41,538 nt of DNA from a virus. The stretch is taken from positions 1 to 41,538 of the IMG/VR virus record IMGVR_UViG_3300031608_000010. One strand, given 5' to 3'. Positions 5,034 through 34,816 of the stretch are shown one piece after another. Below the pieces are notes generated by a model. The model had not been told where the DNA came from. It searched no databases and saw only the letters and a list, made by a program, of their open reading frames with translations. Made by a program: the position numbers and the translations under genes. Numbering within the stretch: the first letter of the stretch is position 1; the number at the start of each line of letters is the position of its first letter.

Positions 5034-6106
5034 TATAGTGAAAGGCCTGCTAAGGTCGTTTCATCTACGTCTTGTTTAACTCCACCTACAACATATGAAC
5101 TGATCTCTGTTTCTTGAGGAGCAACTTGAACGTTACCTCCACCAATCCACTTTTCAGTCCATGGCAACGGATTTAGTTTAGATACATGATACGGACATGT
5201 TAACCCTAAGGCTCTCATTCGTTTACAACCAATCCATTCAATATAATCACATAACAGTTTTTCGTTTAAGCCAATCATTGAACCATCTTTAAATAAGAAC
5301 TTAGCCCATTCTTTTTCTTGCTCAATAACTTTTACGAATAACTTAGTTACTTCAGGTTGCATTTCTTTTTGTAACTTTGCGAAATCTGGATCTTCCTTTA
5401 CCATATTTTTTAACATAGTAGTAGTTGCAGCTAAGTGGACGTTCTCATCCCTTGCAATAAACTTAATGATTTTAGCATTACCTTCCATCTTTTTAAGCTC
5501 AGCAAATGCCCAACTACATGCGAATGAAACATAGAACCTAATACCTTCTAATGCATTAGCACTATTCATACACATCCATAGTGCACGTTTATGGTCCATC
5601 TTGTTTGAAGCTGAGTTATTGTAATCAATTAAGTCATCATAGTATTTTGCGATATCATTACCACATTCTAAGATTTCTTTTATGTCGAGCATACCGTCAA
5701 AAACAGTGGAAGGATCAGCATAGACATTCCTAATGATGTGTGTATAAGATCTAGAGTGGATAGTTTCAGAGAATGACCATGTTTCGATCCAATTTTCCAC
5801 CTCGGGCAGAGAAGCGATTGGTAAAAATGCAAGATTTGGTGCCCTCCCTTGGACGCTATCTAATAGTATTTGTCTTTTTAAATTTGAAGTAAAGATGTGG
5901 CGTTCATGTTCAGTAAGTAAGTCAAAATCTTTTTTGTCCCTACTGACATCTACCTCTTCTGGTCTCCAAAAGAAACCTAATTGTTTGTCTGTTATTTTGT
6001 CTAGTGCTGGGTACTTAAGGATATCAAATCTTTGCACATCCACCGGTTCATCAAGAAACATCATTTTATCTAAGTGAGATTTTTTATTCTTTTTTAATAT
6101 GCTCAT
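5033..6106 (-). CDS. nrdB: Class Ia ribonucleotide reductase, small subunit
   Basis: 357-aa R2 subunit that holds the diiron-tyrosyl radical for reduction of ribonucleotides. The iron ligands and radical tyrosine are visible: D83 in LLDS, E114 and H117 in SETIHSRSY, Y121, E187 in ALEGIRFY, and E221 and H224 in ARDENVHL. The C-terminal tail that docks on the large subunit ends TLAGLSL. It overlaps nrdA by ATGA and makes deoxynucleotides for phage replication with the nearby glutaredoxin. No intron or disruption is seen. Confidence 0.95.
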   Translation of the reverse strand: MSILKKNKKSHLDKMMFLDEPVDVQRFDILKYPALDKITDKQLGFFWRPEEVDVSRDKKDFDLLTEHERHIFTSNLKRQILLDSVQGRAPNLAFLPIASLPEVENWIETWSFSETIHSRSYTHIIRNVYADPSTVFDGMLDIKEILECGNDIAKYYDDLIDYNNSASNKMDHKRALWMCMNSANALEGIRFYVSFACSWAFAELKKMEGNAKIIKFIARDENVHLAATTTMLKNMVKEDPDFAKLQKEMQPEVTKLFVKVIEQEKEWAKFLFKDGSMIGLNEKLLCDYIEWIGCKRMRALGLTCPYHVSKLNPLPWTEKWIGGGNVQVAPQETEISSYVVGGVKQDVDETTLAGLSL

Positions 6107-8385
6107 ATTTTACAACTATCGCAGTCCTCTTCATCTATGTTTGCTTGCTCTAACTCTGGTAGATCGTCTTTAACGTTGACATCGACAGATCCATCATAAG
6201 TATTAAAGTAATACAATTGTTTTAAACCAAATTGATAAGCCATTACTAAATCTTTAATCATTAAAGACATAGGAACTTTGTTATCCTCGAAGTGTTCAGG
6301 ATTATAAGATGTGTTAACACTTATTCCCTGATCTATATATTTCTGAAGTATAGCACAGATCTTTATATAACCTTCAGGAGACTTTTGGTCCCACAATAGG
6401 TCATACTTATTCTTAAGATGATGATAACCAGGAACTACCTGAGCCATCACTCCATCTTTACTCTGTTTATAACTAACCAATGCACGAGGTGGTTCTATAC
6501 CATTCGTACTATTAGAAATTTGTGCAGATGTTTCTGCTGGCATTAATGCCATTAACGTAGAGTTTCTAATTCCATGTTCTACTAGAGAGCTTCTCAGCGT
6601 GTCCCATGGTAATGTAGATTTACGTTTTACTAAATTATCTACTGCACTCTTATATGTATCATTTGGAAGGTCTCCACTGGCATATTTTGTCTCATTATTT
6701 AATAAACATGCACCTTTTTCTTCAGCTAATTCAGCAGAAGCTTTAATTAAGTAATATGACCATGCCTCTGCATACTCATCAATGATCTCATGAGCTCCTT
6801 CATTATACTTTAATCCTCTCTTAGCAAGGAAATACGCTAGGTTGATTATACCTATGCCTAGTGGTCTACGATTCATAGTAGATCTTTCTGCTGCTTTGAT
6901 TGGATACTCTTGATAATCTAATAGGTTATCTAATGCTCTTACTGCTAGTGTACAATACTTTTCAAAGTCTTTTGTATCATCTATCAATCCCCAATTAATG
7001 GCTGATAAAGTACATAAAGAGATCTCTCCGTTTTCATCATCATATGATTCTAAAGGTTTAGTGGGTAGATCTATTTCGCAACATAAGTTACTCATTCTAA
7101 TAGGAGCTTTCTTTACATCAAATGCACCATGCTCATTCGCATGATCGACATTCATTATATAAATTCTACCAGTATCTTTTCTTTCTGTAAGTATCTTTTG
7201 AAATACTTCTAAAGCTGGCATTGTTTTCTTTCTTATGCTATAAGCTCTTTCATATCTTTCGTATAGTTCTTTAAACTTTTCTTGATCTGCAAAGAATGCT
7301 TCGTATAAACCAGGAACATCGTGTGGATCAAAGAATGTAATATTACCACCAGTCAACAAACGTTCGTACATTAGTTTATTAAACTGAAATGCATAATCCA
7401 TGTGTCTTACACGATTCTCTTCAGTACCTTTATTATTCTTTAATACTACTAGGTCTTCAAACTCGTAATGCCATACTGGAAGATATACCGTTGCCGCACC
7501 ACCACGAACACCACCTTGTGAACATGACTTAACAGCTGATTGAAAATATTTAAGGAATGGAATAAGACCAGTATGAACTACTGATCCATCTCCTACTCTT
7601 GCTCCAGCTCCTCTTATTGAGCCAGCACCTATACCTATACCTGCTTTTTTACTTATATACTTAACAATGCTAGTACTAGTAGCATTAATGGAATCCAAAC
7701 TGTCTCCAGACTCAATAAGTACACAAGATGAAAATTGCCTAGTTGGCGTTCTAACACCTGCCATGATTGGCGTAGGGAGCGAGATATAAAATTGACTAAT
7801 CGCGTCATAATAATGTTTTACCCATGCTAATCTATTTTCTTTTTCGTTGGCAAACAACGTTGCGGCTACCATCATATATAATATTTGAGGTGTTTCGAAA
7901 CATTGCTTAGTCCTTCTATCTTGTACTAAATACTTACCACGAAATTGTTCCATACCTGCATATGTAAACGTATCATCTCTATCGTGTTTAATATAGGTAC
8001 CTAGCTCTTCAAGCTCATCTCTTGTATAATGAGTCATGATATCACCATCGTATACACCACGATCGACATTATCAATTACAATTTCAACTAGTGGTTTAGG
8101 TGTAAAATCTCCGTATACTTCTTTACGAAGCTTATAAGATATTAATCTTGAGGCAACGTATTGATAGTTAGGTGTGTGCTCAGATATAAGCTCAGCAGCG
8201 CTTTTAATAAGTAACTCATGGATATCATAAGCTGGTATCTTATCGTATAGTTGTATGTTGGCACGAATTTCTATTTCAGATTGTGACACCGATGTAACAC
8301 CATCAGTAGCCCATTCAAGGACTTTATGTACTTTTTCTAAATCGAAATCTTGGAGTGTGCCGTCTCTTTTAGTGACGTGTATCAT
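6103..8385 (-). CDS. nrdA: Class Ia ribonucleotide reductase, large subunit
   Basis: 760-aa R1 subunit. An N-terminal ATP-cone (IHVTKRDGTLQDFDLEKV) precedes the barrel; SSCVLIESGDSL carries the first active-site cysteine, and MSNLCCEIDLPT the Asn-Cys-Glu catalytic site. The C-terminal CDSC pair shuttles electrons from glutaredoxin. I chose the ATG at 8385 (MIHVTKRDG) because it matches the T4 NrdA start and leaves a leader of about 28 bases after the predicted transcription start. The ATG at 8406 would leave only a few bases and no ribosome site. It is the first gene of the nrd operon. Confidence 0.95.
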   Translation of the reverse strand: MIHVTKRDGTLQDFDLEKVHKVLEWATDGVTSVSQSEIEIRANIQLYDKIPAYDIHELLIKSAAELISEHTPNYQYVASRLISYKLRKEVYGDFTPKPLVEIVIDNVDRGVYDGDIMTHYTRDELEELGTYIKHDRDDTFTYAGMEQFRGKYLVQDRRTKQCFETPQILYMMVAATLFANEKENRLAWVKHYYDAISQFYISLPTPIMAGVRTPTRQFSSCVLIESGDSLDSINATSTSIVKYISKKAGIGIGAGSIRGAGARVGDGSVVHTGLIPFLKYFQSAVKSCSQGGVRGGAATVYLPVWHYEFEDLVVLKNNKGTEENRVRHMDYAFQFNKLMYERLLTGGNITFFDPHDVPGLYEAFFADQEKFKELYERYERAYSIRKKTMPALEVFQKILTERKDTGRIYIMNVDHANEHGAFDVKKAPIRMSNLCCEIDLPTKPLESYDDENGEISLCTLSAINWGLIDDTKDFEKYCTLAVRALDNLLDYQEYPIKAAERSTMNRRPLGIGIINLAYFLAKRGLKYNEGAHEIIDEYAEAWSYYLIKASAELAEEKGACLLNNETKYASGDLPNDTYKSAVDNLVKRKSTLPWDTLRSSLVEHGIRNSTLMALMPAETSAQISNSTNGIEPPRALVSYKQSKDGVMAQVVPGYHHLKNKYDLLWDQKSPEGYIKICAILQKYIDQGISVNTSYNPEHFEDNKVPMSLMIKDLVMAYQFGLKQLYYFNTYDGSVDVNVKDDLPELEQANIDEEDCDSCKI

Positions 8386-8419
8386 TGTTGTTTGTATTCC
8401 ATTCATAATATTAAGTTAT

Positions 8420-8451: not shown

Positions 8452-8823
8452 TTATTTCTTTTTCTTTAAGTGATTTCCAATCTCTTTGAGATGGATATCC
8501 CATAGAGTATTTAGATCTTCTTCTAAAGATTCTATTCTATCTATAAGTGGAATATACCCATCAAATCCTTCTATGCCACATTTAGGATGGCAATGAGATT
8601 CTAGATGGTCTAACCTTTCAGCTTGTATCGGATATTGTTTTCTAAATTTTGCATCTTTCTTAGCCACTTCCAAATCGTATTTCTCTGCATAATGCTGCAG
8701 GAAAGCATCTAGTTTCGCTTGAAACCATATACCCATAGTGGTTTTTTCAAACCAGTTGTAGAAAGAACTACCAATCACTGATGATAGTATTGACTTAAGA
8801 GATAGTATCAATAAGAAATACAT
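8452..8823 (-). CDS. Hypothetical membrane-anchored protein
   Basis: 123-aa protein with a hydrophobic N-terminus (MYFLLILSLKSILSSVIGSS), probably a single membrane anchor, then a helical charged body ending in a KKKK tail. Two cysteine/histidine pairs, HCHPKC, lie near the middle. It follows the lipase gene directly, with its start overlapping the lipase stop, so it may belong to the lysis group. I recognise no family. Confidence 0.6.
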   Translation of the reverse strand: MYFLLILSLKSILSSVIGSSFYNWFEKTTMGIWFQAKLDAFLQHYAEKYDLEVAKKDAKFRKQYPIQAERLDHLESHCHPKCGIEGFDGYIPLIDRIESLEEDLNTLWDIHLKEIGNHLKKKK

Positions 8824-9578
8824 TAATCTTTAATCTTATTAAGTTTTGCTATTGCTCTTACATAGTTGGGCATGCCGTGATCGACAATACCGTCAAAGAA
8901 TTTAAATCTTTTCCAAGAGTTTAATATTCCTTTAAATGCATCTTTCCAAGATGGACCAGTTGCTTTATTGCCATCACTATCAAAGTAAATCATTTCACCG
9001 TGATGTGTGAATCCTAACCATGCTGGTGGAATCCTACATACGATATCGTTATTGTTCATGAATCTAAAATGAGGACACTTAATATTTCTAATGAATTTTG
9101 GTCCACCAACTCTTGGAGATCCGAATGTAAACAATTCAATAGGTGTATAACGAGTTGCAGCTATAGTTGCCATTGCAGCACCTAGAGAATGACCAGTCAT
9201 ATACACATCTTTTCTAACCTTTAATTGGTCGTTATGTTCTATTTCTGCCAATACATCCATCCATAAGTCATTCACTTCTTTCTGGAATCCACTATGAACT
9301 TTACCGCCTGCCATTGCCGCGCCCTTAATAACATTAAGATCAGCCATGACATCATTAATCTTTGAAGGTTCTGTACCTCTAAACGCAAACCATAAATCAT
9401 TACGATCTTTTACTACTAAGCATTCAGCGCCATCTCTGGATATAAGCTTACACCATGGAAATCCTAATTTCTTAGTAGCGGCTTTTGCTTGTGCTTCTGT
9501 TTTATATGCATTCGCTGCTAGCTTAGCTGCTATGCTTGCTCTGTCCCATTGGCCCATTTCTTTTATCCTAGTTCCCAT
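8823..9578 (-). CDS. Class 3 (fungal-type) lipase
   Basis: 251-aa alpha/beta-hydrolase of the lipase class 3 family. The nucleophile elbow TGHSLGAAM gives S131; D178 in NNNDIV and H234 in VDHGM complete a plausible catalytic triad. FAFRGTEP provides the usual oxyanion strand, and FTFGSPRVGG follows the nucleophile as in the family. No clear signal peptide is present, so it would act from the cytoplasm or after lysis begins. It directly follows the spanin-like pair, which suggests a role in membrane breakdown during lysis. Substrate (phospholipid or other ester) is not determinable here. Confidence 0.85.
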   Translation of the reverse strand: MGTRIKEMGQWDRASIAAKLAANAYKTEAQAKAATKKLGFPWCKLISRDGAECLVVKDRNDLWFAFRGTEPSKINDVMADLNVIKGAAMAGGKVHSGFQKEVNDLWMDVLAEIEHNDQLKVRKDVYMTGHSLGAAMATIAATRYTPIELFTFGSPRVGGPKFIRNIKCPHFRFMNNNDIVCRIPPAWLGFTHHGEMIYFDSDGNKATGPSWKDAFKGILNSWKRFKFFDGIVDHGMPNYVRAIAKLNKIKD

Positions 9579-10068
9579 CTTTATTCACCTCAATTTGCGC
9601 GCCGATACCCTTTTGGCCATCGGACATTGTTACATCTCTATAGTATACTACTACTTCTCCAAGTTGTTTGATATATCTTTTTAGTTCTTGCATATCTTCC
9701 GCCATTACTTTATAGTCACCTATTGTAGTAGCAACGAAAACAACTTCTCCGTTATTTTGTTCTTTCATTTCATCTATGAATCTGTCTAAGTAGGTATATC
9801 CTACAGGCCATTCTGGATTCTGTGTATCTTCTTTAGCACATGCTTTAGGTCTTTTATCTCCAACCTTAACGCATGGATTTGCAATATTTGCTTCTGATAC
9901 TACATACCAATTAGGTGCTGTAAGATCAACAGGCCTTGGTAATCCAGGCTGCATGATTTCTATTTCAATCGGCTTAGCGACGATCTCTATATTTTTTGTT
10001 CCTAATAAAGAACAACCACTAGTCAGTACTAGTAGGAGTGTCAATACTGTATAATTTTTTAGTGTCAT
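9568..10068 (-). CDS. Outer-membrane spanin-like lipoprotein (Rz1-like)
   Basis: 166-aa protein with a lipoprotein signal (LLLVLTSGCS; acylated Cys at about residue 19), then a soluble domain with KPRPVD-like proline-rich start and an acidic C-terminus. It overlaps the preceding membrane/coiled-coil gene by 50 bases, the nested arrangement typical of Rz/Rz1 spanins that fuse inner and outer membranes at lysis. It is longer than classical Rz1, so another lipoprotein role is possible. The lipase starts at its 3' end. Confidence 0.65.
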   Translation of the reverse strand: MTLKNYTVLTLLLVLTSGCSLLGTKNIEIVAKPIEIEIMQPGLPRPVDLTAPNWYVVSEANIANPCVKVGDKRPKACAKEDTQNPEWPVGYTYLDRFIDEMKEQNNGEVVFVATTIGDYKVMAEDMQELKRYIKQLGEVVVYYRDVTMSDGQKGIGAQIEVNKDGN

Positions 10069-10402
10069 CTTCTAATCCCTCCATAACATTTTCACTAGCT
10101 GAATTAAACCTATTCTGCATTAGTCCAGGTTTCTTTATAGCTAACATATCCAAATTGTGCCTTCCGAATATCGCTAGGTATTCTGCTTTCTCAGCTTCAA
10201 TTTCGGCATTCACTCTACTCATATTCTGTAGGGCATTGCCTTGTTTTTCAAAGGCTTCTCGTATAGCCACCATCGTAGCTTTTTGTTCAGCTACTGCACC
10301 TTCCAGTGCTATGTTATTAGATGCTAGTGTTTGGTTTTCTTGGTATAACCAATAACCTCCTAGACCTAATACTAATATAATTCCAATTAATAATTGTTGC
10401 AT
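10019..10402 (-). CDS. Inner-membrane spanin-like protein (Rz-like)
   Basis: 127-aa protein with one N-terminal membrane segment (LLIGIILVLGLGGYWLY), then a long heptad-like helix rich in Ala, Glu and Gln (about residues 24-80), as in i-spanins. Its 3' end overlaps the lipoprotein gene. The pair would connect inner and outer membranes across the periplasm and trigger fusion in the last lysis step. The evidence is topology and overlap rather than sequence similarity. Confidence 0.65.
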   Translation of the reverse strand: MQQLLIGIILVLGLGGYWLYQENQTLASNNIALEGAVAEQKATMVAIREAFEKQGNALQNMSRVNAEIEAEKAEYLAIFGRHNLDMLAIKKPGLMQNRFNSASENVMEGLEDDTKKLYSIDTPTSTD

Positions 10403-10668
10403 TAATCTTGTTCCTCTATCTTATAGTTCAGTCCATCCGCTCCAGCGAATTTCACTCTTCGGCCTTCGTCATCTATGAAGACTAAAATCTTTTCTTTTTC
10501 TGTTATTATTTTTGGGACGTTTTCAAAGACTTGGTCGTCTGCGTCACCGTATATTGCGTTATATGATACTGTTACTGTATGATATGTAATGAACCATGAT
10601 TTGATCCATATCCAAGCTCGTTTACACCAACCTGGTGCTTTTTTAAACCAATCAATTACCTTGTACAT
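10402..10668 (-). CDS. Conserved marine T4-like hypothetical protein
   Basis: 88-aa protein with a tryptophan-rich amphipathic N-terminus (WFKKAPGWCKRAWIWIKSWF), then VTVSYNAIYGDADDQVF and a C-terminal GADGLNYKIEEQD. The second half resembles a small conserved protein in marine T4-like phages with no known function. The N-terminal helix could bind membranes. It sits immediately before the spanin pair, its stop overlapping the i-spanin start. Confidence 0.6.
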   Translation of the reverse strand: MYKVIDWFKKAPGWCKRAWIWIKSWFITYHTVTVSYNAIYGDADDQVFENVPKIITEKEKILVFIDDEGRRVKFAGADGLNYKIEEQD

Positions 10669-13456: not shown

Positions 13457-13741
13457 TTATTGCAGTATTATCATTCCAGTGACAGCGGTTGCGGCTGCAG
13501 CCATAACTATCCAGAATATTTTATTGATTATATTAATAGTAGTTCCATTTTCTGAAACTTTCTTTTCTACCAGTTCTAATCGCCTTTGCCCATCAACCAA
13601 CATTTCCATTTGTTGATGAACGAATTTTTCTAATCCCATGAGCTTTTCTTCAGCTCGTGCGAGTGATATAATAGCATCAGATAGTCGATCGAGTTTATCT
13701 TCAATTCTATCTAATCTATCTGTTTGAGTCACTCTTGCCAT
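13457..13741 (-). CDS. Coiled-coil protein with C-terminal membrane segment
   Basis: 94-aa protein with heptad-rich sequence DRLDRIEDKLDRLSDAI over residues 8-60 and one C-terminal membrane helix (INKIFWIVMAAAATAVTGMI). This tail-anchored coiled-coil design resembles XhlA-like small phage proteins. It may associate with the membrane during lysis or infection, but its place in the internal-protein cluster leaves the role open. Confidence 0.6.
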   Translation of the reverse strand: MARVTQTDRLDRIEDKLDRLSDAIISLARAEEKLMGLEKFVHQQMEMLVDGQRRLELVEKKVSENGTTINIINKIFWIVMAAAATAVTGMIILQ

Positions 13742-22408: not shown

Positions 22409-23065
22409 TTATTTAGATAAGGGAGTGAATATAGTGTCAATTACCTTGCCACAGGCTTTGGCTATTTCTATGTGTTCTTCTTGAGTACCATGAGATCCTC
22501 TTAGTTCTATGTAATGAATCCAGCTTCTTAGCGTTCCATTAACATACATACGTGACATAGTTAAACCCTCAGGCAATACTGCACGGGCTTGTTCTTTTGC
22601 TATGCCAGCTTCGATAGCCCAATCATATGCTTTCTTACATCTTTCGATTATTGTTTCTTGATATGATTCCCAGATGTAGTTAATAGTATCGTCTTCTGGT
22701 AATTCAATAGAATTCTGACGGTTACTAGGATCTTGCATCCTTGCTGCTCTCGTAGTGAACTTTAAGTCTTTTGTTGGGTCGGCGTATCGTTGACTAAACT
22801 CTTGAAAAGAGAATGAACGATGCCGAAGTATTTGTCTAGCAATGTCTCTAGGGCAATTAATCTCCATACAAACAGATACCATTTCTAATGGTGACCAATG
22901 TTTGTGCTTCATTAAATACTTAACTAGACCTTCTGCTGTTTTTTCATTATTCTGATTGTCTGGGTTTGATACCCTAGCGCAATAGGCAACCAACTGTAGA
23001 ACATCGTTTGGTATATCGAAGTCTACAGCTGGTTGTGAATATGATATGAGTTTCACATCCATCAT
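22409..23065 (-). CDS. thyX: Flavin-dependent thymidylate synthase ThyX
   Basis: 218-aa ThyX, which makes dTMP from dUMP using FAD and methylenetetrahydrofolate. The signature RHRSFSFQEFSQRY is complete, and EQARAVLPEGLTMSRMYVNG and LRSWIHYIELR match the C-terminal active-site strands. With dCMP deaminase and ribonucleotide reductase it gives the phage its own thymidylate route. The start MMDV is ambiguous by one codon; AAGGACT lies upstream. T4 itself uses ThyA-type synthase, so this is a marine-phage substitution. Confidence 0.93.
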   Translation of the reverse strand: MMDVKLISYSQPAVDFDIPNDVLQLVAYCARVSNPDNQNNEKTAEGLVKYLMKHKHWSPLEMVSVCMEINCPRDIARQILRHRSFSFQEFSQRYADPTKDLKFTTRAARMQDPSNRQNSIELPEDDTINYIWESYQETIIERCKKAYDWAIEAGIAKEQARAVLPEGLTMSRMYVNGTLRSWIHYIELRGSHGTQEEHIEIAKACGKVIDTIFTPLSK

Positions 23066-23083: not shown

Positions 23084-23701
23084 TTAAAAATTATAATGTA
23101 AACCGAGAGATACAGAATCACTAAACTGATTTTCGAAAGCCATGTCAAGCATTACCATCATGCTAAGTTCGAATTCATCGTTTAGATCATATGATACGGT
23201 CATTGTCGAGAAATCATTTTCTTCGTCATGGTAACCATAACCAAGAGCTACATCTACTACTGGAACAAAGTCCGATATGTCATAGCTGATATGCGCGTAA
23301 TCATCTTCATTTTCGGTGTCTAGAAAATACATGACGTTTAAGTTTTTGTAATTTACTTTAACAAATCCTTCTTCTTTCACGCCTCTTCCACCACCGTCAT
23401 AACGTATTTGATTAATACCCGCTTTGACGCTTAAGTTATCACTAACGCTAAAGCCATATCCTAAATATAGATTCCTTTCCCAAGATGCATCGTCTCCGAA
23501 GTCAACTTGTCCAGTCCATGCACCTGCAAAGAAACCGTTGGATTCTACTTCAAGATTGGCGTTAAAGCTAGATTGGCCATTGGATTGAGTTGCCCCTCTC
23601 CACATGTAATCACTACTATATCCTACACTACCACTTACGTCTGCAAATGAAAATGATGGAATTAATAATGTTGCCATTCCTAATGATTTTAAATAACTCA
23701 T
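23084..23701 (-). CDS. Outer-membrane beta-barrel protein (TIGR02001-like)
   Basis: 205-aa protein with a signal peptide (MSYLKSLGMATLLIPSFSFA before DVSGS) and repeated amphipathic strands ending in a C-terminal phenylalanine (LGLHYNF), the outer-membrane barrel signature. GYSSDYMWRGATQSNGQ matches the start of a bacterial family of porin-like proteins (TIGR02001). I chose 23701 for the AGAGGAAG ribosome site and signal start. A phage-encoded porin in the replication region is unusual. It may alter host permeability or block superinfection. Confidence 0.75.
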   Translation of the reverse strand: MSYLKSLGMATLLIPSFSFADVSGSVGYSSDYMWRGATQSNGQSSFNANLEVESNGFFAGAWTGQVDFGDDASWERNLYLGYGFSVSDNLSVKAGINQIRYDGGGRGVKEEGFVKVNYKNLNVMYFLDTENEDDYAHISYDISDFVPVVDVALGYGYHDEENDFSTMTVSYDLNDEFELSMMVMLDMAFENQFSDSVSLGLHYNF

Positions 23702-23877
23702 TACGCTTCCTCTCTGACTAAAGTATAGATACCGTAACCTATTCCTACCCATGCGAGTAGTTTAGCTACACCACCAAAAAGCAACACACTACCGCATATC
23801 ACAATAAGCAATACTCCGTCATGTGAAGTTCTTTCAGGCAATCTATTTTTTACCCAGTTTTTTATTGAATTTAACAT
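23701..23877 (-). CDS. Small conserved membrane protein
   Basis: 58-aa protein, MLNSIKNWVKNRLPERTSHD, then a membrane region VLLIVICGSVLLFGGVAKLL and a short tail. It resembles a small protein next to gp41 in T4-like cyanophages, possibly with two closely spaced membrane segments. GGAG nine bases before the ATG at 23877 supports this start over 23892. Its stop overlaps the barrel-protein start. Function unknown. Confidence 0.65.
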   Translation of the reverse strand: MLNSIKNWVKNRLPERTSHDGVLLIVICGSVLLFGGVAKLLAWVGIGYGIYTLVREEA

Positions 23878-23892
23878 ATATATTTTCTCCAT

Positions 23893-31555: not shown

Positions 31556-31976
31556 GTAACCTTTCTCTCAATGTTGAAGTACTAAAACTGTGCTTCCTAC
31601 TATTATATATGATTTTAATTTTCTGTTGGATACAGAGCTCTTTACCAGTGAATTCTTTTCCCTTGTAATCTTCGCCAACTACTCTGACACTTATAGGTAA
31701 TGTTAATAGTAAATCCATAATATCATTTTCTGTTTGGTATGTTACTATCTCATCTACGTATTTAAGTCCAGCTAATTGTATTTGTCTTTCTACAATAGAT
31801 TGGATTGGCTTATTTTTTTCTGGTCGGTCTATGCTTGGATCTGTCTGTAATCCTACTATTAAATAGTCACAGTGTCTTTTTGCTTCTTCGAGCATTGTGA
31901 CATGACCAGCATGCAATAAATCGAAACATGAGAATGTTATTCCTATCTTTCCGACGTTCTTATAATCTAATCTCAT
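31530..31976 (-). CDS. TagD-like cytidylyltransferase
   Basis: 148-aa nucleotidyltransferase. TFSCFDLLHAGHVTMLEEAK carries the HxGH motif at residues 22-25, and HSFSTSTLRERL is the C-terminal phosphate-binding motif. The family (glycerol-3-phosphate cytidylyltransferase and relatives) makes CDP-alcohols or CDP-sugars. It shares the modification operon, so it may make an activated donor for DNA or envelope modification. The natural substrate is not visible. Confidence 0.8.
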   Translation of the reverse strand: MRLDYKNVGKIGITFSCFDLLHAGHVTMLEEAKRHCDYLIVGLQTDPSIDRPEKNKPIQSIVERQIQLAGLKYVDEIVTYQTENDIMDLLLTLPISVRVVGEDYKGKEFTGKELCIQQKIKIIYNSRKHSFSTSTLRERLHENSNNRK

Positions 31977-32266
31977 GAGGATATATACGTTATTAAGTTT
32001 CTTATTAGTAGTATAAATCCTACCGAGTTTAATAGAATCAATGCTCTATCTTTCCAAAGCAGTGCAACTACTGTCCATAGACCTACACCCGTAGCTGACA
32101 GGAGTAAATCATATAGTTGCCAACCATCAATACCTCGTATTGACATTGCAGCTAATACGAATACCGATGCCACCCATTTTACATACCAATCAAGTGTGTA
32201 TTTTGGAGTAGCAGATTTAAATATTCTTTTGCTGTGTTCTATTTCTTTTACATCAAATTTTTTCAT
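31973..32266 (-). CDS. Hypothetical membrane protein
   Basis: 97-aa protein with probably three membrane segments (WVASVFVLAAMSI, LLLSATGVGLWTVVALLW, ALILLNSVGFILLIRNLI) after a basic N-terminus. It is coupled to both neighbours by 4-base overlaps. Similar small membrane proteins occur in marine phages without known function. It may place the sugar-nucleotide enzymes at the membrane, but nothing demonstrates this. Confidence 0.6.
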   Translation of the reverse strand: MKKFDVKEIEHSKRIFKSATPKYTLDWYVKWVASVFVLAAMSIRGIDGWQLYDLLLSATGVGLWTVVALLWKDRALILLNSVGFILLIRNLITYISS

Positions 32267-32715
32267 AATTTTATATCGTGTATCTCTACTTTTACGCCTG
32301 CATCAACGAAAAATTTAGTAGTTAATCTAAAAGAGTCATCCCATTTTTGCGGAATCTCTTGCGTGGTTAGTGGTATTACAACGGTCTTTATTCCAACTTG
32401 GATAATAGCTTTAGCGCATTCATGACAAACTGGTAATCCCCAAACAAACAATGTAGCTTCATTTAGAGATACTCCATTCCATGAAGCGTTGTATATACAA
32501 TTCATTTCAGCATGGACTATACGTGCATACTTATGTTCTTTATTTTCATAGTTAGTATCGTCAAATCCTCGAGGATATCCGTTATAACCTTGAGCTAATA
32601 TTTGACCTTTATTTCCTACTGCAACAGCTCCAACTTGAGTACTTGGATCTTTACTCCATGTAGCTACAAGCTTGGCTAGTTCTAAATATCTTGGATACCA
32701 TTTATTATTATTCAT
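32263..32715 (-). CDS. cd: dCMP deaminase
   Basis: 150-aa zinc deaminase converting dCMP to dUMP. HAEMNC supplies H68 and catalytic E70, PVCHECAKAI supplies C97 and C100. The ATG at 32715 (MNNNKWYPRYLELAK) overlaps the hydroxymethylase stop; the 32766 start would lie inside it. It feeds thymidylate synthesis by ThyX and competes with the hydroxymethylase for dCMP, as in T4. Confidence 0.92.
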   Translation of the reverse strand: MNNNKWYPRYLELAKLVATWSKDPSTQVGAVAVGNKGQILAQGYNGYPRGFDDTNYENKEHKYARIVHAEMNCIYNASWNGVSLNEATLFVWGLPVCHECAKAIIQVGIKTVVIPLTTQEIPQKWDDSFRLTTKFFVDAGVKVEIHDIKL

Positions 32716-33371
32716 TTTACTAAATCGAAATGCCTCTCGTATACATGTAAGTTCTGTACTTGCCAATGGATGTCACCAGATTGAACATATAGATCATATG
32801 ATAATTTGTCTAGAACATATTTTTGCCAAGCGTAATCATTTCTATAACCAAAGATAACATCATTAGATCTCATTTGAACTACACTGTGTAGCTTCTCGTC
32901 TCTAATATAATATGTTACTGCATTGGTACATATGAAATCGTTTTTAAACTGATCATTGTATTCTAGCCAAATGCTAGGACGTGTATAAATCATAGCAGCT
33001 CTACGGCTATCAGGATTTTGATCTAGTTCTTCTACTACTTGAGCATATTGATTATAATATTTTTCAGAGTATATTAGATGACCATAGTTGGAATTAATTT
33101 CACCATGAACATTTGCTGTTTCTTGCCAAGCCTTTGGTGGTTCTTTATCTCCTTCAGGATAGATATCAGTGATATTAGTTGATTCGCTTTCGTACCATTC
33201 TAATTCAGCATCTATATATTCTTGATTAGGTTTACCAAATATAGCTGGTTCATCTGCTATAAATGAAGCACCAATCATTTCAATTGTTTTACTACCATTT
33301 CTATCAGTAGTAAATCGTTCCATTGCTAATTGCGTTTTAAAGTATTGTCTTACTGCAGGTATTTCCATCAT
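32712..33371 (-). CDS. 42: dCMP hydroxymethylase (T4 gp42 homologue)
   Basis: 219-aa enzyme converting dCMP to hydroxymethyl-dCMP. It follows T4 gp42 closely (IEMIGASFIADEPAIFG, NPDSRRAAMIYTRP, MRSNDVIFGYRNDYAWQKYV). From the ATG at 33371 the nucleophile is C148 (ICTNAV) and the cytosine-selecting aspartate is D179 (YRNDYAW), the same numbers as T4; thymidylate synthases have Asn there. The start forms an ATGA overlap with the upstream gene. It implies hydroxymethylcytosine DNA. Confidence 0.93.
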   Translation of the reverse strand: MMEIPAVRQYFKTQLAMERFTTDRNGSKTIEMIGASFIADEPAIFGKPNQEYIDAELEWYESESTNITDIYPEGDKEPPKAWQETANVHGEINSNYGHLIYSEKYYNQYAQVVEELDQNPDSRRAAMIYTRPSIWLEYNDQFKNDFICTNAVTYYIRDEKLHSVVQMRSNDVIFGYRNDYAWQKYVLDKLSYDLYVQSGDIHWQVQNLHVYERHFDLVK

Positions 33372-33736
33372 GTTCTTTCCCACTCGTCAGTTTCGTGACT
33401 TGGTCTTGCTAAAGGTCTAGCTTGTCTATTAAAGCAATCACGGTTAGGATCTTGACCTTCCATTTTGCCACGCATAAATGATACTGCAAAGGATGCGTAA
33501 TTAATCATATCCTTGTAGGTATCTTCTAGGGACTCAAAATTTGGGTCACCATGTTGGCCTGCTTCGAGCAGCGATTGTGCTCGTAACATTTTACCGTTTA
33601 TAATATCGTGTATACTATCTACACCTCTGCGATAATGCATTGCTTGAGTAACGTTAGATTCCTGATTCTGGTAATCATCAGATTTTCTAGCTTGTAATTC
33701 AGCACACTCTTGTAAAACTTTTAAACTTTCTTTCAT
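33368..33736 (-). CDS. DUF1599-like nucleotide-modification-associated protein
   Basis: 122-aa helical protein with ECAELQARKSDDYQNQESNV, GKMLRAQSLLEAG and YKDMINYASFAVSF, a pattern resembling DUF1599 (nucleotide modification associated domain 1). It leads the operon with the hydroxymethylase and is coupled to it by ATGA. A role in nucleotide-pool or modification control is suggested by family name and place. I cannot see catalytic residues for certain. Confidence 0.6.
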   Translation of the reverse strand: MKESLKVLQECAELQARKSDDYQNQESNVTQAMHYRRGVDSIHDIINGKMLRAQSLLEAGQHGDPNFESLEDTYKDMINYASFAVSFMRGKMEGQDPNRDCFNRQARPLARPSHETDEWERT

Positions 33737-33797: not shown

Positions 33798-34286
33798 TTA
33801 ATTTTGTTTGACCCATGATTGATAGAACTTACTACCAACTGTAGTGTTCCAATGGTATCTACCAACGTACTTATACTCTGGGTTATATACGCCTTGTGTC
33901 TTTGATGGACTATGCCATACTTCTAGAATTGTTGGCCAGCCGGTCCAAGCTAGCTTTACAAGTTCTCCCCATTTAATAAGGTTACTTTCTAGATAATTCA
34001 TATCACCTATAACTTTGACTTCAACAGACTCTCCAAGAGGATTACGTACATCTCTGCATTTTCCGTCGTCGTCTGAATAACCGCAGTGAGTCATTAAGAA
34101 TTGCTCTGCAGCTTGGCCTCTTTTAGTTTGCCATACTAAATGGTCATACGTTCTTTTAATCCACATACCATTTGTAAATTGCTTTGACTCTTTAAAGCTT
34201 TTATTGGTTCTAGTTAAATTGGCTTCTTCTATAGAACGGCTATGCCAAGCATCGTAGTCGATTTCTGTTAAGTTAAAATTTCTCAT
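33798..34286 (-). CDS. Hypothetical protein, possible PD-(D/E)XK-like nuclease
   Basis: 162-aa protein with RGQAAEQFLMTHCG followed by DVRNPLGESVEVKVIGD. The Glu in the first helix and the D...ExK strand pair could be a compact PD-(D/E)XK core, as in some restriction-type phage nucleases, but I cannot verify it. The remainder is rich in Trp and aromatic residues. It is coupled to the endolysin gene by a 4-base overlap. Confidence 0.5.
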   Translation of the reverse strand: MRNFNLTEIDYDAWHSRSIEEANLTRTNKSFKESKQFTNGMWIKRTYDHLVWQTKRGQAAEQFLMTHCGYSDDDGKCRDVRNPLGESVEVKVIGDMNYLESNLIKWGELVKLAWTGWPTILEVWHSPSKTQGVYNPEYKYVGRYHWNTTVGSKFYQSWVKQN

Positions 34287-34816
34287 TTGTAGAATATGTG
34301 GTTATTAATAGTTATAGTTTGTGTAAGGTAATCATTCCAATACGGATCTACTTGATCGTTGTGATACCATAAAGCCCCTTCAGTCAAATCAATGGCTTGT
34401 TCGTATATGACCATATCAGCTACTCGTAGAGAATCCATCCATGTGACTGAATCGGTTGGCTCATCAGATTTGCCATCACAGAACCAACTGAACTGACACA
34501 TGTTTCTGATTGGATATTCATTACCTTTCCAGTTTGTTCCTATCTTAGCTTGGTATACAACATCACAGATTGAATCGGGAAACTGATTATCAGCAGCTCT
34601 ATTCAATACTACTTGTGCTACTGCGAGTCTTCCTGCTAAAGGTTGATTGGCTGCTTCGAAGTATATATTCTGAGCTAAACAATATCTGTCGCCATTTTCA
34701 TCTGATGCATTTGCTATTGGAGCAAACATTAAAAACAATACCAATACTGGCCATGCTAAGACGCAAACCCAAATTAAAATCTTCATAGTTATTTCTTCAA
34801 ATTTATCAAACATCAC
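34283..34816 (-). CDS. SleB/CwlJ-type cell-wall hydrolase (endolysin)
   Basis: 177-aa protein with a hydrophobic export segment (ILIWVCVLAWPVLVLFLMF) followed by APIANAS, a plausible signal cleavage or signal-anchor, and a cell-wall hydrolase domain: CLAQNIYFEAANQPLAGRLA and QVVLNRAADNQFP, CQFSWFCDG. The Glu in YFEA is the likely catalytic acid. It would cut peptidoglycan at lysis. GTG at 34816 has AGGA upstream; a second start at 34786 would shorten the N-terminus. Confidence 0.8.
   Translation of the reverse strand: MMFDKFEEITMKILIWVCVLAWPVLVLFLMFAPIANASDENGDRYCLAQNIYFEAANQPLAGRLAVAQVVLNRAADNQFPDSICDVVYQAKIGTNWKGNEYPIRNMCQFSWFCDGKSDEPTDSVTWMDSLRVADMVIYEQAIDLTEGALWYHNDQVDPYWNDYLTQTITINNHIFYK

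Follow-up and report, generated by a model that had tools for sequence, protein, structure and literature searches.

Gram-negative lysis is taught as the work of a holin, an endolysin and a spanin, in which the outer membrane is removed by topological fusion and no lipid is hydrolysed. In T4, the spanin genes PseT.3 and PseT.2 complement lambda Rz/Rz1 in lysis, and they are not adjacent to the holin or endolysin gene (PMC6139136). LysB of mycobacteriophages is a lipolytic enzyme of lysis cassettes, and its deletion delays lysis or lowers burst size (PMC6116114). In a 2025 survey, the lytic proteins of prokaryotic viruses comprise endolysin, holin, spanin, pE, Pei and PVAP, and the text nowhere speaks of a lipase (PMC12596118). 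Furthermore, in the open-access literature we came across no account of a spanin cassette with a lipase, an absence that is weak evidence. The present study describes a lysis cassette with a lipolytic enzyme that occurs widely in marine viromes and has apparently not been described in the open literature searched. The initial annotation of this DNA knew of no standard lysis cassette with such an enzyme; this holds for Gram-negative phages in the searched literature (PMC12596118), but not for mycobacteriophages, whose LysB is lipolytic (PMC6116114).

The stretch of DNA analysed here (the window; 41,538 nucleotides) is a 41.5-kb IMG/VR record, a fragment of a T4-like phage with nearly every gene on the minus strand. 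It carries T4-type replication genes (gp43-like DNA polymerase, UvsX, DnaB-like helicase, thymidylate synthase, nrdA and nrdB), and its polymerase is nearest to that of Kyanoviridae phage C48C1 (53%) and next to those of cyanophages (45-47%). Read 5′ to 3′ on the minus strand, the unit runs Y88, i-spanin, o-spanin, lipase and X123, followed by nrdA and nrdB. Y88 and i-spanin overlap by 1 nt, the two spanin genes by 50 nt, o-spanin and lipase by 11 nt, and lipase and X123 share 1 base. The relevant features are as follows.

10402-10668, minus strand: Y88, 88 aa, cationic Trp-rich N terminus; kept 5′ of i-spanin in many relatives
10019-10402, minus strand: i-spanin, 127 aa, N-terminal transmembrane (TM) segment; phrog_739, T4 PseT.3 homology
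9568-10068, minus strand: o-spanin, outer-membrane lipoprotein, 166 aa; phrog_812, lipobox, T4 PseT.2 homology
8823-9578, minus strand: class 3 lipase, 251 aa; Pfam PF01764, triad residues, Foldseek
8452-8823, minus strand: X123, small protein, N-terminal hydrophobic segment; conserved after lipase, or after o-spanin where lipase is absent
6103-8406, minus strand: nrdA, downstream neighbour outside the lysis unit; Pfam PF02867, E=8e-124
23701-23892, minus strand: tm52 homologue, 63 aa, single TM segment, putative holin candidate; family HMM, E=2e-20
34283-34816, minus strand: endolysin (cell wall hydrolase); PF07486, E=2e-25; match to phage C48C1 endolysin, E=1.3e-39

The lipase and both spanin ORFs lie on the minus strand exactly where the initial annotation had placed them. 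Its span, 8823-10402, omitted Y88 and X123, each of which overlaps its neighbour. Pfam and PHROG searches with Y88 gave no match under E=0.1. An endolysin within the spanin-lipase cassette was ruled out, the gene having been found ~25 kb upstream of it, as also in the near-identical genome L003. The endolysin N terminus is hydrophobic in the TM scan and ends in a signal-peptidase-like ANAS motif, which suggests that the enzyme is probably exported (Sec) or membrane-anchored. The endolysin and the tm52 homologue lie apart from the spanin-lipase unit, an arrangement that T4 shares.

Adjoining the tm52 homologue is a Gcw_chp-like protein (23084-23752, minus strand; E=1.4e-7), possibly an outer-membrane protein. 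A coiled-coil protein with a C-terminal TM segment (13457-13741, minus strand) gave weak matches to phage holin and hemolysin PHROGs (E ~0.015) and to DUF7201; a protein resembling it lies directly 3′ of o-spanin and an X123 homologue in L128. At 31973-32266 (minus strand), a 97-aa multi-TM protein matched DUF6552 (E=2.7e-16) and had a weak match to MtN3_slv (SWEET sugar transporters); it could be a phage-borne SemiSWEET-like transporter. The window also has two thymidylate synthase-like genes (32712-33736 and 22409-23065, minus strand), one of them adjoining a DUF1599 'nucleotide modification associated' gene. Together with a nucleotide-sugar epimerase and a DNA methylase-like gene, these may point to a pyrimidine hypermodification pathway.

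The lipase matched Pfam Lipase_3 (PF01764) with E=1.3e-20 and a score of 74.2 bits (cut-off 22), and PHROG 21992, esterase/lipase, with E=1.1e-24. The catalytic triad S131 (in GHSLG), D178 and H234, which had been called intact, occurs in that order, at those positions, and is invariant in 72/72 distinct lipases of the window's clade, as are R67-G68-T69 on the oxyanion side and H95. A median pairwise dN/dS of 0.13 indicates that the gene is under purifying selection. A sequence search of the PDB gave Rhizomucor lipases as the best solved relatives (E=2e-14). An AlphaFold2 model (pLDDT 76, pTM 0.79) retrieved class 3 fungal lipases and esterases as top Foldseek matches (best E=3.5e-7), with feruloyl esterase and phospholipase A1, at TM-scores of just 0.46-0.58. 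Judged by profile, triad and predicted fold, the protein is an alpha/beta-hydrolase nearest to the class 3 lipases and belongs to the Lipase_3 family. It shares the fold, the GHSLG elbow, the triad order and, tentatively, a helix at the lid position with the Rhizomucor miehei and Thermomyces lanuginosus lipases and with plant phospholipase A1; those enzymes are eukaryotic and the fungal ones secreted, whereas ours comes from a phage. The helix in the expected lid position (75-89) has pLDDT <50 in the model. Just before the catalytic His lies a conserved W/K/F-rich cationic amphipathic helix (211-227; muH 0.54, charge +4), which, together with the pI of 9.5, would plausibly suit contact with acidic membranes. 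Scan and alignment gave no signal peptide and no TM segment in the lipase.

As a functional precedent, LysB of Ms6 and D29 is likewise a serine alpha/beta-hydrolase with GXSXG in a lysis module; it removes the outermost barrier enzymatically and is accessory, not strictly essential (PMC6116114). In contrast, LysB is cutinase-like and cuts mycolyl-arabinogalactan ester bonds in hosts that have no Gram-negative outer membrane, whereas Pfam and fold place the window enzyme among the class 3 lipases, and its gene adjoins those of a spanin pair, with the endolysin 25 kb off. No cutinase was among the listed Pfam and Foldseek matches of the window lipase. We therefore rejected its identification as a LysB, since fold family and setting both differ, and regard it as analogous to LysB but not of the same family.

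The i-spanin matched phrog_739 (E=2.8e-10) and the o-spanin phrog_812 (E=4.3e-9), both annotated 'Rz-like spanin', which bears out the overlapping spanin-like pair claimed before the lipase. The i-spanin, which lacks Cys, carries a TM segment at its N terminus. In the o-spanin there are a lipobox, LTSGC (Cys19), and two more Cys, C66 and C77. HMMs built from relatives of the window spanins matched T4 PseT.3 (E=2.9e-5) and PseT.2 (E=1.1e-3) within a 14-kb T4 stretch. This homology is modest in score, yet it involves both members, in order. Taking the TM i-spanin, the overlapping lipobox o-spanin and the homology to a proven pair together, we class this window pair as two-component spanins, and their presence implies a Gram-negative host envelope. 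T4 and the window are alike in their homologous spanins, in the broad nrdA/nrdB region and in having the endolysin elsewhere; T4 likewise has a Cys-free i-spanin and an o-spanin with two Cys beyond that of the lipobox (PMC6139136). They differ in that the spanin genes overlap by 50 nt in the window while those of T4 barely touch, in o-spanin length (166 aa in the window versus 99 aa in the T4 record), and in the lipase and X123 that follow the spanins; T4 has no lipase there. Since the T4 pair is homologous and similarly placed, the spanin-nrdAB neighbourhood is old T4 geography.

A search of IMG/VR with the lipase only gave 80 loci, and in 79/80 of them o-spanin lies directly 5′ of lipase; the remaining contig starts 165 nt before lipase. 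This count is free of the bias that affects L082-L159, which were collected via o-spanin. The commonest o-spanin/lipase spacing in relatives is a 4-nt overlap, and X123 lies directly 3′ of lipase in 99/99 near lipase loci. Three other contigs hold the lipase at 100% identity. These identical copies and the order kept in 79/80 loci argue that the locus is neither a chance nor an assembly artefact. Sister phages without the lipase, found via o-spanin, carry o-spanin, X123 and nrdA (L104, L107, L121, L148 and L159) or o-spanin directly followed by nrdA (L092, L098, L139 and L157). Because these sisters keep spanin-(X123)-nrdA, the lipase is an optional, cleanly inserted single gene in T4-type synteny, one that joined the spanin unit and not the nrd genes. 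A functional link between nrdAB and lipase was rejected on the same ground: lipase-less sisters keep nrdAB by the spanins. The o-spanin had no tblastn match among 50,697 phage records, and therefore the full cassette is not present in isolates at tblastn sensitivity. The lipase-bearing group is a large one of mostly uncultivated marine T4-like phages.

A profile search retrieved further lipases at 41-59% identity, among them a second clade at 41-47%. The lipase tree separates a spanin-linked group, a second viral group linked to X123 and tm52, and a bacterial group with relatives in Nitrosomonas, Planctomycetota and others (33-43% identity); it comes from a quick search with weak deep branches and is used only for this three-group split. 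In the second clade, o-spanin is usually not adjacent and nrdA usually absent nearby. An X123 homologue is adjacent instead, commonly followed by a ~52-aa single-TM peptide (tm52), and a two-TM EF-hand-like protein is sometimes also near. The order lipase-X123-tm52 occurs in L231, L235, L242, L248, L250 and L258. In L219, L222 and L239, a PF07486 endolysin gene precedes lipase by ~4 kb on the same strand; L226 has it 300 nt upstream (endolysin then lipase), and in L224 the two genes are 130 nt apart and divergent. L233, with the order tm52-i-spanin-o-spanin-lipase-X123, forms a bridge between both lipase groups. A role for the lipase as a spanin replacement was rejected for the window clade, which has both; in the second clade, a recognisable spanin pair is kept elsewhere on at least 3 contigs (L334, L335 and L337).

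Across 71 IMG/VR lipase representatives (<90% identity), 69 have a lysis or X123/tm52 neighbour by lipase and 58 a spanin or PF07486 endolysin; 58/71 is the firmer figure, as X123 and tm52 are functionally uncharacterised. No recognised lysis gene stands beside the lipase relative in representatives L228 and L234 or in the isolates P-SSM2 and XacN1. X123 proteins have in common an N terminus that is hydrophobic and a motif conserved at the C-terminal end, and adjoin lipase, spanins or tm52 in nearly all loci; homologues follow distant lipases in L219, L222, L239, L242, L248 and others. No Pfam or PHROG match was obtained for X123, which by its sequence and position is a candidate new lysis-module membrane protein. 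The tm52 peptide begins MNWIKxRLxERTSxDG..., followed by one TM segment, occurs also at L233:3155-3316 and L248:6216-6374, and recurs in lysis neighbourhoods; we consider it a holin candidate. At least 3 small-protein genes with signal-peptide-like N termini lie within ~2.5 kb upstream of lipase in L219, L222, L239, L227, L242 and L248. In L234, L244 and L164 (marine contigs and Xanthomonas phage XacN1), a GroES-like gene comes directly after lipase or lies a few genes off.

Two isolates carry comparable enzymes. P-SSM2, a T4-like phage, encodes a ~30% identical Lipase_3 protein with the triad conserved (PSSM2_200, T4-GC 195), near a DUF7207 gene and then a small, possibly membrane-associated protein. 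Unlike ours, it has 204 aa and no recognised adjacent spanin, and the annotated record gives it no lysis role. In Shewanella phage vB_Sb_QDWS, a class 3 lipase closes a gene run that includes an endolysin and a holin-like ORF; the start of the lipase is overlapped by a lipoprotein ORF of this run. This is another phage type (48 kb), its lipase is ~33% identical, and its lipoprotein is not recognisable as the window o-spanin; it may represent a third arrangement.

In a promoter search, TATAAATA occurred 9 times in the window against 8.0 expected, which is not above chance, with all nine copies on the coding strand and none within ~4.5 kb upstream of the cassette. In relatives, sense copies outnumber antisense copies upstream of the cassette. 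In most of them, however, no copy lies between the U205 stop codon and the cassette, the nearest being inside coding sequence. We therefore dropped late-promoter evidence for lipase timing, because the nearest copies are mostly upstream of the U205 stop codon, within coding sequence.

We propose that marine T4-like phages use the lipase as an accessory enzyme of lysis that acts on host membranes, a reading to which we give a probability of roughly 0.6. Y88, i-spanin, o-spanin, lipase and X123 would be made, presumably late, from one overlapping gene set, and the lipase, which carries no export signal, would build up in the cytosol. Once the inner membrane is compromised, it would reach membrane lipids, either host phospholipids or related ones, and cleave their ester-linked acyl chains. 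Inner- and outer-membrane remnants left after spanin-driven fusion would then break down faster, and virion release would be more complete. The genes, their catalytic residues and conserved order, the purifying selection and the repeated association with genes for spanins, endolysin and small TM proteins in differing layouts are firm; lipase activity on such lipids, late timing and an effect on lysis are what we infer. A membrane lipase acting at lysis is favoured because the gene is linked to lysis genes across different arrangements (guilt by association), and the homology of the adjacent spanins to a T4 pair that works in lysis lends support (PMC6139136). Assistance in envelope rupture, one of two roles offered in the initial annotation, is supported by the spanin overlap in the window clade and by the endolysin, X123 and holin-like company in the second. 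Against the proposal we count that sister phages manage without lipase and that part of the association rests on the uncharacterised X123 and tm52. Its weak point is access: with an exported endolysin, holin holes may be small, and until the inner membrane collapses the lipase would then reach only its cytosolic face.

That confinement leaves room for another mode of action, as lysis trigger or holin helper: lipase and X123 would together attack the inner membrane from the cytosolic face instead of clearing up after the spanins. Such an action would fit the missing export signal, the cationic amphipathic helix, the near-constant X123 neighbour with its N-terminal hydrophobic segment and the tm52-like single-TM peptides of the module. 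Besides, an apparently Sec-exported endolysin makes a large holin hole unnecessary. To our knowledge, an enzymatic holin has no precedent. Sisters with X123 and spanins dispense with lipase, and the topology of X123 is not established; we hold this explanation to be improbable. Less doubtful, though still unlikely, is an auxiliary metabolic enzyme that degrades host membrane or storage lipids for energy, carbon or remodelling, its adjacency to spanins being a frozen accident. The lipase is predicted to be cytosolic, with no signal peptide, it lies near nrdAB, which feed phage DNA synthesis, and cyanophage relatives, e.g. P-SSM2, have it amid genes of unknown function. However, the linkage tracks lysis genes and not metabolic ones, the second clade usually having endolysin, X123 or tm52 and no nrdA nearby. 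Since nrdAB beside spanins is inherited T4-like synteny, present equally in lipase-less sisters, the neighbourhood gives no support to the other role first suggested, digestion of host lipids for carbon.

A virion-borne or superinfection modifier of the envelope, packaged or made early so as to alter host lipids at entry or exclude other phages, would agree with cyanophage S-CREM1, whose virions contained a lipase-like protein (PMC9964418). A tblastn search with the window lipase did not match S-CREM1, and in the examined loci the neighbours of lipase are lysis genes and no structural gene is linked to it, which makes this explanation very improbable. A shade less probable again is linkage with no function, a retained host-derived lipase hitchhiking in an o-spanin/nrdA hot spot. 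Its optional presence in an otherwise syntenic slot and the existence of bacterial relatives (33-43% identity) would suit a hitchhiker; the invariant catalytic residues, the purifying selection, the tight overlaps and the separate clade in which lipase re-associates with other lysis genes argue the opposite. The accessory lysis enzyme thus remains our preferred reading. Whether Gram-negative phages have a further class of enzymatic lysis effector, a class 3 lipase, usually with X123, that digests host membranes and may be wired to spanins, endolysin or holin-like genes, we judge to have slightly less than an even chance.

If the proposal is true, marine T4-like phages add an enzymatic membrane-digesting step to lysis, much as LysB does for mycobacteriophages, and the sister phages that have or lack lipase constitute a natural experiment on its role. 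The lipase would then be a new class of membrane-active phage enzyme and its action a widespread, unrecognised step in marine bacterial lysis, one that would change the amounts of intact membrane debris and free fatty acid released to seawater by viral lysis.
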